DNA of 64,000 nt from Pseudomonas sp. ok272 (GTDB taxonomy: Bacteria > Pseudomonadota > Gammaproteobacteria > Pseudomonadales > Pseudomonadaceae). Below are positions 20,121 through 57,151 of this stretch, piece by piece (the stretch's first letter is position 1; each line of letters begins with the position of its first letter). The translations under genes were made by a program, and so were the position numbers. The stretch spans positions 1 through 64,000 of the forward strand of contig NZ_FOCB01000013.1 of the NCBI RefSeq assembly GCF_900109995.1. Reading direction: 5' to 3'. The notes under the pieces are model-generated. The model saw only the letters and a program-made list of their open reading frames with translations, had not been told where the DNA came from and did no database searches.

Positions 20121-20375
20121 CTACTGTTTGAACCCCGGCAGGCCGTTTGCTTCGCGCCACTCTTTGACGGTTTTGGTTACGCCTTCCGCCGAGTCATCGG
20201 CGTCGTCCTCAGGATAAAAAATCAAATCGGACCCCTTCGGATGTCCGCAAATTGAATTGAAGTGAAACACAAGCTTGCTTTCTTCCTCTTCGCTCTCATC
20301 ATTCCCCATGATGCGCTCAAGCAGGTCTATGAACTCTTGTTCTGTGTAATCCGAAAAACTTTGTTTAGTCGCCAT
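20121..20375 (-). CDS. colicin E/S-pyocin DNase immunity protein
   Basis: 84-aa acidic protein of the Im2/Im9 family, which binds the cognate nuclease domain and protects the producer. Family features are the start SFSDYTEQEFIDLLERI, the acidic loop, and helix III in GSDLIFYP followed by DDSAEG (compare SDLIYYP in Im9). It overlaps the bacteriocin stop codon by 11 bp, the usual coupled arrangement. Confidence 0.93.
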   Translation of the reverse strand: MATKQSFSDYTEQEFIDLLERIMGNDESEEEESKLVFHFNSICGHPKGSDLIFYPEDDADDSAEGVTKTVKEWREANGLPGFKQ

Positions 20376-21630
20376 TTTTATTTTCCTTGTGAATCTCTAC
20401 GTGCCGCTTTGGAGTCATTACAGCTAGGTTATCAACATCATAAACCGCACCACCATGCTGGATATGCTCGATGTGATGTATCTCGTACTTCGCTTTTTCC
20501 CCGTAGTGATCCGGCATAGGGGCAAAAGGCGCCCTGCCATCCATCAGCTTACTTTTGTTTGTGCGCTTGAACTGACTTAGCAGCGTTGGATCGCTCGCCA
20601 CCTCTTCCCAGAACGCCTCCCTGAATTTATCAAAGCTGGAGAACTCACGCCCTCGGAGCGCGTCCGCGATGCGTGTCGGTATCGGTGCGCCTAGGCCTTC
20701 ACCGGCGCCAGCAAGCCAGATGCCCGATACGTCCTCCCCGATACCAGTCACAGTGCCGGGGCCGTAGCGTGGGCCAGTCTTTGAAAACACGATGTACAGC
20801 GAGCTAAGGCCCGTTCCCGCCGGAAAGACCAGAATACAGTCGTCGGTTTCGATGTCGTCCCCAGCCGGATAGCCCTCAATCTGGGAGTCTGTGTTTTCCG
20901 GTATGGGATGAACCAGAATGACGGGGTCGGCGTTGCGCTGCTCAGGGTGGACCAACGGCGGGAGGGCTAGCGGTCCTCTGGGAGTCCACAAAATGGTGAT
21001 GCCGTTCAGGTCCGCTTCCAGTACGGTTTTGGTGGCATTCCATTTGACCTGGACTGTGCGCACGGAATCATCGCCGGACGGGCCGGTATGAATGCCATAG
21101 ACCTGCATTACGCCTTCGGCATCACGACGGAACTGAAAGCGTACACGGGTGGGTGCACGGCTCAGTTGGCGCAGATCATCGTCTTTGTACAGTGTCCCGT
21201 CGCCCATCTGGGTGGAGAGCATTCCCGCAATGAACACCCCTGTAGGGTTGCCGCGCAAGGCCCACCTGAAACCCTTTTGTAGTAGGCCGCTACCAGCGAT
21301 GCGCCCCAGCACTGCGTCGAAGCCTACCGCGAGTTTAAGCGCTTCGATTGACGAGGGGACAAGCATGGGCGCGACCAGCATGACCTTGCCAAAGTCTGAG
21401 GCGGGGACGGTGGCAGTACCGGGCTTAGTGCAGCTCCAGCTTTCAGGTACGCAGGACTTAGCAAAGACCAGGTCTGTACGTTCCTTGGGGCGTGGCCATT
21501 CATCTTTTTTAAGGTGGACGACCGGCTCTGGCTCTCGGGGTGGATTAAACGCGGCCCATGAGGCACCACCGTTCGGAAGTCTCCGACTCCATTCATCGTC
21601 AAAAGGGTTTTTCTTTTTATCCTTGTTCAT
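20365..21630 (-). CDS. short S-type bacteriocin with HNH DNase domain
   Basis: 421-aa bacteriocin from ATG 21630 (AAGG 7 nt upstream); the open frame reaches a TTG at 21696. After about 85 N-terminal residues comes a pyocin-S translocation domain (about 90-290). The C-terminal 135 residues are a colicin E2/E9-type DNase: the DRIA/FWEEV-like stretch (PTRIADALRGREF, AFWEEVASDP) and an intact HNH motif (EIHHIEHIQHGG, DNLAVMTPKRHVEIH). Typical S-pyocins are about 620-780 aa; this one lacks room for the usual receptor-binding N-terminal domain. It may use a short receptor domain or be truncated. It is followed by its immunity gene. Confidence 0.88.
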   Translation of the reverse strand: MNKDKKKNPFDDEWSRRLPNGGASWAAFNPPREPEPVVHLKKDEWPRPKERTDLVFAKSCVPESWSCTKPGTATVPASDFGKVMLVAPMLVPSSIEALKLAVGFDAVLGRIAGSGLLQKGFRWALRGNPTGVFIAGMLSTQMGDGTLYKDDDLRQLSRAPTRVRFQFRRDAEGVMQVYGIHTGPSGDDSVRTVQVKWNATKTVLEADLNGITILWTPRGPLALPPLVHPEQRNADPVILVHPIPENTDSQIEGYPAGDDIETDDCILVFPAGTGLSSLYIVFSKTGPRYGPGTVTGIGEDVSGIWLAGAGEGLGAPIPTRIADALRGREFSSFDKFREAFWEEVASDPTLLSQFKRTNKSKLMDGRAPFAPMPDHYGEKAKYEIHHIEHIQHGGAVYDVDNLAVMTPKRHVEIHKENKNGD

Positions 21631-21730
21631 GACAAGACCTTGTATCGCTTCATGTAGAGCCGGGGGAGCTTGTCGTTCAAAACGAATGTCGGTCAATTTT
21701 GCTCGGTAACCTAAAGTTTCAGATCCGTCG

Positions 21731-22040
21731 AAACTACGAGCGCCGAAGTTCGTAGTTTCATTCGTAGAACCACTCGTAGCTTTGAGTTTCCGCGCACCTG
21801 GTCATGCGCGAAAGTTTGCGCGGAACCTGCGCGGAATGGTCGGCGGTGCGTACCTGGTCAGCCTCAGAGTTACGCAAGGTGCCTTGCGTAGAAACTTGCG
21901 TAGTTTCGCGTTCGACCTAAGTGGTGCTGGTAGGCAGACCAAAACTGCGCGGACGGTTTTGCGCAGCTCGGTGCGCAGCTTTTCTGATTCCGCGCACGGC
22001 GCCTTGCGTGGAAGTTTGCGTGGAGCCGTGCGTGGAGTGG
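21731..22040. repeat. array of 12-bp-spaced CGTRG/CGCRG motifs
   Basis: Between the bacteriocin and the small ORF is a stretch with strong periodicity. Five clusters of two or three motifs occur at exactly or nearly 12-bp spacing: cores at 21751/21763/21775, 21807/21819/21830, 21887/21899, 21948/21962/21974 and 22007/22019/22031. Clusters repeat about every 60-80 bp, and most are preceded by an inverted copy of their own core, for example TACGCAAGG and CCTTGCGTA at 21871-21890. The core is nearly constant within a cluster and differs between clusters. No convincing gene fits; open frames on both strands show a matching 4-residue periodicity. Function unknown. Confidence 0.75.
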
Positions 22041-22112
22041 CTGGCACCCTCGATCAGTACGCAGCCTGAAAAGGCCGGTTTTGCTGCGAGCCAGGTCTTA
22101 ACCCCGGCTAAT

Positions 22113-22135
22113 CTCAAGGGTCCATGACCCTTGAG
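22113..22135. promoter_or_regulatory. perfect 10-bp inverted repeat
   Basis: CTCAAGGGTC and GACCCTTGAG flank a 3-base spacer. No T run follows on either strand, so it does not look like a terminator. It lies just upstream of the small ORF at 22146 and could be an operator or an RNA hairpin near its start. Confidence 0.55.
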
Positions 22136-22145
22136 GGCTGAAATT

Positions 22146-22388
22146 ATGACCAGGTATCGCCTGAGCCAAGCCGGGCACGATTTGAACTACGGCTATCGAC
22201 GTAATGCGCGATTGGCACTTGAGGCGCTTGGCCCAACCTTTACAGAGGAGGAGGCGCTGAGTGCACTCCAACCACTCCAGGCATCGGGAAGGCTTGGTAA
22301 GGGCACGTCCAGAAGCTTCTGGCACCGGTTCGCCACGCTGGGGGCGCATGCCAAAAAGAAAGCGTTCATTGAGTTGGCAGCTAGCTGA
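22146..22388 (+). CDS. unknown small island protein
   Basis: 80-aa basic protein (MTRYRLSQAGHDLNYGYR...) with no recognised family. It starts at ATG 22146 with a weak GAGGG box; an in-frame TTG at 22131 lies inside the preceding palindrome. It is rich in Leu, Ala, Arg and Lys with a helical pattern (TEEEALSALQPLQASGRL) and could be a small DNA-binding protein or excisionase-like factor, but no helix-turn-helix is clear. It may be a real island gene; homologues would decide. Confidence 0.5.
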   Translation: MTRYRLSQAGHDLNYGYRRNARLALEALGPTFTEEEALSALQPLQASGRLGKGTSRSFWHRFATLGAHAKKKAFIELAAS

Positions 22389-22514
22389 TAGCGTTGATTG
22401 ATCCGCCGGGCACTTACTCGTAGTACCGCTCAAGGTCACCAATCTGAATGCTGCCCCGGCATGACCCTCAAAGGGTGGCCGGAGGTTTTCACTCCGAAAA
22501 TGGATGGTTTCCAC

Positions 22515-22545
22515 GGGTAACCCAAAAATGTTTTTTTGGTTACCC
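22515..22545. repeat. hairpin at the integrase breakpoint
   Basis: GGGTAACC and GGTTACCC are separated by an A-rich then T-rich centre that can also pair, giving a long stem. It lies exactly where similarity of the integrase fragment stops (after RVTKK on the minus strand), so it may mark the truncation point. Confidence 0.5.
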
Positions 22546-22815
22546 GGCTCATCTGCTCAAGGATGCCCTGCTTTTCGAGTGCGCGTAGAAGGCTCATCCA
22601 TTCCATCGACAGGATGCCGGTGTAAGGGCGTTTGCCGAGTTCTGGGAAGACGTGACGCTCAAGTGCCCCGATCATACGCTTTGCAGTACCTGCGTCCCAA
22701 CCGCTGAGGCGTGAGGTATGCCATTCGCGGGCGAGTGTTTCAAAGGTATCGTTTGCCGCCTCGACCTCAGCAGCCTTGCGCGCCAGGTTCGTGGCCATCG
22801 GATTTTTGCCTTCGG
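22534..22815 (-). pseudogene. P4-type integrase fragment
   Basis: About 93 codons match the middle of P4-family tyrosine integrases: EGKNP, then TFETLAREWHTSRLSGWD, ALERHVFPELGKRPYTGI and LLRALEKQGILEQMSRV, which is the SAM-like core-binding domain. The N-terminal arm-binding domain and the whole catalytic domain with the R...HxxR...Y residues are absent. It lies beside the tRNA-proximal repeat, the normal place for an integrase, so it is a relic of the enzyme that inserted the island. Confidence 0.8.
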
Positions 22816-22870
22816 CGGCATCACACGATGGGAAGTATAGGGAGAGACAATTACAGACAGCCAGAAACAA

Positions 22871-22897
22871 GAAAGCCCGCACGAGGCGGGCTTCTTG
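22871..22897 (-). terminator. tRNA-Met terminator
   Basis: On the minus strand AAGCCCGC and GCGGGCTT form an 8-bp stem around CTCGT, followed by TCTTGTTTC. It lies about 45 bp behind the tRNA. One arm is included in the attachment repeat. Confidence 0.8.
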
Positions 22898-22946
22898 AGG
22901 TGATTCATAGACTGCTGTAGACATCTATGGATCGGTACTTGGTGGC
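22882..22946. repeat. tRNA-proximal attachment-site repeat
   Basis: Direct repeat partner of 19911-19975 with 3 mismatches over 65 bp. Its end covers the final 7 bases of tRNA-Met including the encoded CCA, so the tRNA 3' end remains intact after integration. Confidence 0.85.
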
Positions 22947-23016
22947 TACACAGGGACTTGAACCCCGGACCCCAGCATTATGAATGCTATGCTCTAACCA
23001 ACTGAGCTATGTAGCC
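22940..23016 (-). tRNA. tRNA-Met (CAT)
   Basis: A full 77-nt cloverleaf reads on the minus strand: acceptor GGCTACA pairs with TGTAGCC, the D-arm holds AGCTCAGTTGG, the anticodon arm TAGCA/TGCTG closes loop TTCATAA (anticodon CAT), the T-arm has GTTCAAGTC, and CCA is encoded. The acceptor starts G-C, so it is elongator rather than initiator. It serves as the integration site of the adjacent island. Confidence 0.95.
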
Positions 23017-56941: not shown

Positions 56942-57112
56942 CTATGACACGTACAGCCTTCCCGCCCCGGGTAAGGTGTGCGTGTCATAGGTCTTGTCAA
57001 ACCCTGCAATCCATCTGTGTGGACGCTGGGGTCGCATACGCCATGGTCTGAGGACCAAGTATGTTGACGTATGCCGGACGAGCAAGGCGCTCGTGGGAGA
57101 CTACTCCCCTAG
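56942..57112 (-). ncRNA. yybP-ykoY manganese riboswitch
   Basis: On the minus strand, in order: CCTAGGGGAGTAG, GTCAACATACTTGG and GACAAGACCT, the conserved blocks of the Mn2+-sensing yybP-ykoY aptamer (about 56989-57112). The 3' end of the last block runs into a hairpin with arms CTATGACACG and CGTGTCATAG (56942-56990), which overlaps the aptamer closing stem. This is probably the expression platform. The GDT1-family gene starts about 30 bp downstream. Confidence 0.9.
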
Positions 57113-57120
57113 GACGGAGC

Positions 57121-57151
57121 GGATTCTGCCTAGGCAGAATCCGTTCGGCAA
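57121..57151 (-). promoter_or_regulatory. palindrome overlapping the riboswitch promoter
   Basis: A perfect 22-bp palindrome (half-site GGATTCTGCCT, 57121-57142) lies just before the aptamer. A minus-strand promoter fits: TTGCCG (57146-57151), 17-bp spacer, CAGAAT (57123-57128), so the palindrome covers the spacer and -10. It may be an operator adding transcriptional control to the riboswitch; this is inference. Confidence 0.5.

Follow-up and report, generated by a model that had tools for sequence, protein, structure and literature searches.

A modular repeat array in a Pseudomonas bacteriocin island probably imitates the packaging sites of different headful phages

A bacteriocin island in a 64-kb stretch of the Pseudomonas sp. 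ok272 genome (the whole stretch analyzed, hereafter the window) carries a five-module repeat array at 21730-22041, recognized by direct reading and by script, and the locus raises the question of what reads these repeats. The array is placed between the S-type bacteriocin and immunity genes on one side and a small ORF on the other, with a truncated integrase and a tRNA-Met gene farther out (Table 1). Our comparisons with satellites and phages indicate that it is probably a collection of pac sites, imitating the sites bound by the small terminases (TerS) of different headful phages and lying in the remnant of a P4-related satellite. Binding of TerS to the modules and packaging from them are what we infer from sequence comparison. 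Headful phages begin packaging at pac, which in P22 lies within the TerS gene (parts of PMC9611059), and TerS proteins that target pac display their DNA-binding motifs in a ring (parts of PMC4737164).

Table 1. Array modules and neighboring genes of the bacteriocin island (window coordinates)
Feature	Position	Strand	Basis
Bacteriocin immunity gene, cargo	20121..20375	-	PF01320, E 1.6e-30
S-type bacteriocin gene, cargo	20365..21696	-	Pyocin_S and DNase domains
Module C1, word CTACGA in three direct copies plus an inverted one (word-word-word-inverted on the minus strand)	21730..21784	-	reading and script
Module C2, word TTCCGCGCA with TTTCGCGCA as its third copy, and an inverted copy; 11- and 12-bp steps	21785..21842	-	
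Module C3, word CTACGCAA twice plus inverted copy	21863..21915	-	reading and script
Module C4, word CTGCGCA twice plus inverted copy	21939..21985	-	
Module C5, word TCCACGCA three times plus inverted copy	21986..22041	-	
Small ORF, no assigned function	22146..22388	+	
Truncated P4-type integrase	22436..22924	-	PF22022, E 2.3e-13
tRNA-Met(CAT), presumed attachment gene	22940..23016	-	

All five modules follow one geometry. On the plus strand an inverted core precedes the direct cores, the inverted and first direct 5-mers starting at 21734/21751, 21790/21807, 21870/21887, 21945/21962, and 21990/22007, an offset of exactly 17 nt in every case. Later direct cores follow at 12-bp steps, with the third copy of C2 (+11) as the lone exception, and the direct cores number three in C1, C2, and C5 and two in C3 and C4. 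The initial annotation had described a 12-bp-periodic array of five clusters, most with an inverted copy of the core and standing 60 to 80 bp apart. The periodic array is real: with 27 lag-12 repeated 5-mers per 340 bp, it is the strongest short-period signal of the 64 kb, the best competing place scoring 14 at lag 21 when lags 5-39 were scanned. Inverted copies are present in all five clusters rather than merely in most; all five bases agree in C1, in C4, and in C2 when copies 2 and 3 are the reference, and C3 and C5 have one mismatch each. The distances between cluster starts are 56, 80, 75, and 45 bp, the middle two falling in the range given and the outer two below it. By reading, a G.T pair on the plus strand lies within the stem of each of C3, C4, and C5. 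A module scan of the window found three modules on the plus strand and one on the minus strand (scores 17-20), and five 64-kb Markov sequences, scanned on one strand each, yielded two, both at the lowest score of 17. In the controls of a separate module scan, matches in random sequence were attributed to carried-over N runs, and an N run in one genome (G126) made a false module. The clusters differ in core phase modulo 3, and one step in C2 measures 11 bp, so taken whole the window copy does not form a translated repeat.

Arrays of this geometry might also be expected of a regulatory RNA made of repeated hairpins, which the initial annotation had offered as one reading. The array folds better than its shuffles (z of -5.0 on the plus strand and -4.4 on the minus strand), and the stem mismatches of C3-C5 would be G.U pairs on the plus strand. 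However, inverted repeats yield such fold scores without any RNA function, covariance models of Rfam gave no family at gathering score, and the words are tied to terS genes, as described below. We regard an RNA of this kind as extremely improbable.

Among the traits of P4-related satellites, the window has a P4-type integrase, truncated, adjoining tRNA-Met, and its sequence is 31% identical to the phiAH14b integrase over 94 aa. No other satellite gene was found in the window by tblastn with 25 of the 29 phiAH14b proteins at E 1e-5 (no primase/helicase, AlpA, or Rha), nor was a second att copy, a 21-mer of the tRNA end occurring once with up to 3 mismatches allowed. A satellite in another genome (G126) also stands at a tRNA-Met(CAT) gene of identical sequence, with similar flanking DNA by reading.

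A blastn comparison with Pseudomonas genomes, the route initially suggested, found no relative of the window array in phages, plasmids, or 198 other genomes of the genus; the bacteriocin 5' end was matched in one genus genome, and raising E to 10 gave one chance-level array match (E 4). A scan of the other 168 genomes likewise gave no triple word of C5. Relatives of the small ORF were found at two other Pseudomonas loci, in G310 and in P. fluorescens C2, and none among viral contigs, phages, and plasmids; a weak third match proved spurious. Around the G310 relative stand three word triplets whose cores are different (GGTTTCCA, GGTTCGCA, and GGTACGC), and the module scanner detected no module upstream of the relative in P. 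fluorescens C2. Related arrays were reached by a pattern scan instead. A TGCG pattern matched in 255 of 398 genomes, mostly as noise, and 14 places picked from these matches by eye comprised seven with module arrays (L086-L092), each with a word of its own, and seven without (L093-L099). The related array of one locus matched 13 of 149 genomes and a single phage record, that of the satellite phiAH14b. In all, 19 genomes had array matches, all of them Pseudomonas and with cores unlike those of the window. The period is kept while the cores change in these relatives, and a set of related sites recognized by a multimeric protein, one of the initial suggestions, is the most likely description of the array.

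phiAH14b is a published satellite whose DNA was found packaged in the capsids of its helper, and its authors infer multimeric DNA and headful packaging in helper capsids (parts of PMC4936722). In the portions of that paper open to a text search, the sole occurrence of "repeat" does not concern the array region (PMC4936722). A primase and helicase like those of phiAH14b are encoded in the fetched DNA of 14 of the 19 array-match genomes, comprising all of the first ten array loci examined, where other satellite genes vary, and four of the remaining nine (G088, G025, G320, and G090). The fetched stretches of G087, G049, G046, G005, and G007, mostly with short array matches, contained no satellite replication gene, nor did that of G310. 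The association with a mobile element carrying a P4-type integrase, proposed at the outset, is most likely right as well.

Our word counts cover ten intact-looking satellites and leave aside the nine other array-match genomes; in one of the ten host genomes, G030, the proteins that were compared are the same as those of phiAH14b. Array word pairs lie at 59-86% of the cut-out regions, at a distance from the integrase end (G226 gave no integrase match). Read from int toward the distal end, a module consists of the word, the word again at +12 and at +25, and an inverted copy near +41. Twenty-four modules run in this direction and 11 in the opposite one, eight of the latter being the GGTTCGCA module, in which there appears to be an additional inverted copy. 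The window modules have the same direction relative to the P4-type integrase as those of the satellites, and whether orientation relative to int is informative is a matter on which these counts are suggestive only. In phiAH14b, 22 of the 32 exact word pairs (9-14 bp) have their start in none of the 29 annotated CDS; these CDS take up 13.5 of the 16.8 kb. Each satellite holds, by our own count, about five to nine words of one kind plus a second class. By inspection, words are mostly alike and spacers differ among modules that recur in the same region of the ten satellites, and this combination of like words and unconstrained spacers is in keeping with a protein that recognizes multiple copies together.

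The satellites also have counterparts of the attP arm and crr repeats of P4, with words of their own. Their crr-like region has a 9-10 bp spacing and lies between helicase and p17, separate from the array, and the replication origin that had been considered for the window is not supported. In this region (L116 9300-9530 and equivalents), the iterated word varies by satellite (GGGGAACA, TGGCAACA, TGGGAACA, or GGGGACA) and the geometry is nearly constant. At L116 13700-13900 there is a third class of pairs, with a 10-bp step and a TTTT center (TGTAAGGTTTTGTAAGGTT and others).

The P4 repeats themselves (GenBank X51522) resemble the array in being short iterated words, 12-bp direct repeats with an inverted copy, but they serve integrase and replication, and their words and places are unlike those of the array. 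This likeness raises the alternative that the array is a library of arm-type sites (attP arms) for many P4-type integrases. The annotation of the P4 record includes 12-bp attP arm repeats with this very layout, a 12-bp word pair stands just upstream in 46 of 78 non-redundant P4-type integrase loci (35 of them with an inverted copy too), and the window array shows the same trait, a 12-bp direct pair with an inverted copy. Against this, by inspection of the 78 loci, the array words differ from the sampled integrases' own arms, only GGTATCC being common to both; the modules lie distally, away from int; like terS modules, they frequently include a third copy at +25; and 14 of 16 terS words were found in the satellites instead. 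A library of integrase arms is thus highly improbable. The pairs upstream of integrases are exactly 12 bp apart and made of many different words (e.g., L178 and L155). Integrase-arm decoys were an earlier working idea, which was dropped once the words appeared inside terS.

The modules of the satellites occur in phage terS genes. A scan of viral contigs for a triple GGTTCGCA or TTCACGCA returned 13 contigs, in 11 of which the match is covered by a TerS ORF, as called by our own HMM, built partly from the same contigs. Independently, PHROGs identified four tested ORFs (two from triple-word contigs, L277, and one genome locus) as terminase small subunit (E 5e-38 to 2e-74), and the module-bearing ORF type is annotated as small terminase beside terL in phage PS-1 and six other Pseudomonas phages. 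To avoid choice by word, we selected 39 terS genes by protein homology, namely 27 of the 28 genome matches of a phrog_1206 scan of 169 genomes (one weak match adjacent to another being dropped) and 12 of 51 phage records; their ORFs were extracted by HMM, an earlier extraction by motif having missed 13 of 50 loci. The module (word, word at +12, word at +25, inverted copy at about +41) lies within 32 of the 39 genes, or 25 of the 31 non-redundant ones, and is absent from seven; codon-shuffled terS genes contained it in 6 of 780 cases. The genes that bear it come from Pseudomonas and enterobacterial phages. A coding repeat, raised earlier as an alternative, is therefore true of the phage modules, which are coding and inside terS, but not of the window, where the copies are not in one frame.

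The words themselves are common to terS genes and satellites. Fourteen of 16 distinct terS 7-mers recur in one or more of the ten satellites as pairs spaced 11-13 bp, against a mean of 0.40 and a maximum of 3 for letter-shuffled words, and none of the 14 occurs as such a pair in 400 kb of other DNA. Once registers were merged, by a procedure of our own, these 14 words amount to nine 8-mers: GGTTCGCA, GGTATCCA, GGTTTCCA, GGTTGCCA, GGTACGCA, TTCACGCA, TTCGCGCA, GGTGACCA, and GGTAACCA. Some of the agreement extends past the word, as in the TTCGCGCA module, where it includes the degenerate third copy GTCGCGCA.

The window modules share the terS layout, with C3 and C4 limited to two direct copies. 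Viral-contig scans with the window words gave 24 contigs, a fourth scan finding nothing, and a single one of them, L331 (with TTCCGCGCA), has the full inverted copy at the right place; it is also the sole contig with a TerS ORF over the match, the other 23 being without. This TerS belongs to phrog_1206 (E 1.5e-21, PHROGs), and a TerL-like ORF, assigned by reading, begins at its stop codon. Local alignment of C2 with L331 terS scored 66 (null maximum 38, 0/60 shuffles), a comparison that is not independent, as L331 was found via the C2 word. C5 scored 52 against the same gene (null maximum 38, 0/60 shuffles), and its frame STHGSTQTSTQGAVRG can be set beside SAHDSAQTSAHEVMRG of the L331 TerS. 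C4 was marginal against terS (score 36, null maximum 34, 0/60 shuffles); one of its frames reads EKLRTELRKTVRAVL, resembling the repeat region of some TerS. C1 and C3 gave no match above the null in 50 sampled terS genes. The 11-bp step of C2 breaks the coding frame, as would be expected of a DNA site freed from coding.

Such alignments, which for C2 and C5 run across 50 bp, could also arise if the modules were non-functional terS fragments left by recombination with prophages, and the truncation of the window element and the array matches where no satellite genes were seen are in keeping with this. Recombination debris, however, does not explain why the module alone is kept and the rest of terS gone, why by inspection the words are mostly alike and the spacers vary, or why ten satellites share many modules in the corresponding region. 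We consider leftover fragments very unlikely.

The second class of satellite repeats, pairs 10-11 bp apart such as TCTGGACAGGCTCTGGACGG, has a counterpart in a helper phage. The known helper of phiAH14b, phiAH14a, has TTCTTGACAGGCTCTAGACGGATG just upstream of a DUF2280 gene (L117 28336-28363), which is followed by the terminase gene, and this sequence agrees with phiAH14b in 23 of 28 positions; of the matches between phiAH14a and phiAH14b that rank higher, most lie within genes, and some are terminator-like. A similar pair precedes the DUF2280 gene in six of seven other DUF2280 phages (L349-L355, two of them nearly identical), as judged by eye. From its gene position, DUF2280 is presumably a small terminase, and the pair before it is a candidate pac of a second small-terminase type. 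The main array of phiAH14b does not match this helper, whose presumed TerS is of the other type (DUF2280), and the likeness of phiAH14b to phiAH14a is restricted to the second pair class.

If the modules are pac sites, the one embedded in terS would be the pac site that this family of TerS uses. A helper's ring of small terminases would bind the word copies of the matching module in a satellite, and its terminase would then cut the satellite concatemer and package it by headfuls, so that many modules would mean many possible helpers. Because no satellite replication gene remains in the window, the only present role of its array may be to mark the bacteriocin island for packaging, or the array may be a relic. 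More tentatively, though as a quite real possibility, satellites may keep a key ring, that is, a selected and growing library of pac sites drawn from the terS genes of many phages and from at least two small-terminase families, which would decouple a satellite from any single helper; the window would then show an array that has outlived its satellite and marks the bacteriocin island for any matching phage.

Identical word matches would equally be expected if the modules were decoys that titrate the small terminases of helpers and hinder helper packaging, with no role in packaging the satellite, and satellites commonly interfere with their helpers. However, one module per word would offer little for titration, and the packaging of phiAH14b DNA in helper capsids (parts of PMC4936722) implies that packaging signals are needed. 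We therefore hold decoys to be unlikely and prefer the packaging-site reading.

Satellites of the SaPI type carry a helper-like pac or cos that imitates the helper's packaging signal, typically with one or two such signals per element. The arrays described here share this imitation of helper signals but have about five to nine words per satellite plus a second class, and arrays of many such sites would be new relative to known satellites that imitate the pac or cos of one helper. The pac site of P22-type phages is placed inside the small-terminase gene and regarded as the site that TerS recognizes (parts of PMC9611059), whereas the window and satellite sites lie outside terS, are strung together, and differ in specificity. 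Within the phiAH14b/phiAH14a pair, phiAH14b carries a related array, and the window element differs in being truncated and in having another integrase type and cargo. Searches of open-access full text (satellites with repeats, decoys, pac, and multiple packaging sites), a scope outside which most subscription papers lie, returned no account of such arrays. How satellites are matched to helpers is a live question, and if the arrays are pac libraries, the helper range of a satellite could be read from its sequence by comparing words with terS genes. They would also constitute a natural catalogue of word-protein pairs for testing TerS recognition, which is hard to pin down biochemically (parts of PMC9611059).

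Some further features of the window were noted. A perfect 10-bp hairpin lies at 22113-22135, between the array and the small ORF, and two 10-nt stretches of the array (21796-21805 and 21851-21860) are exact reverse complements of the small ORF start (22146-22156). A manganese (yybP-ykoY) riboswitch is found at 56999-57122 on the minus strand.
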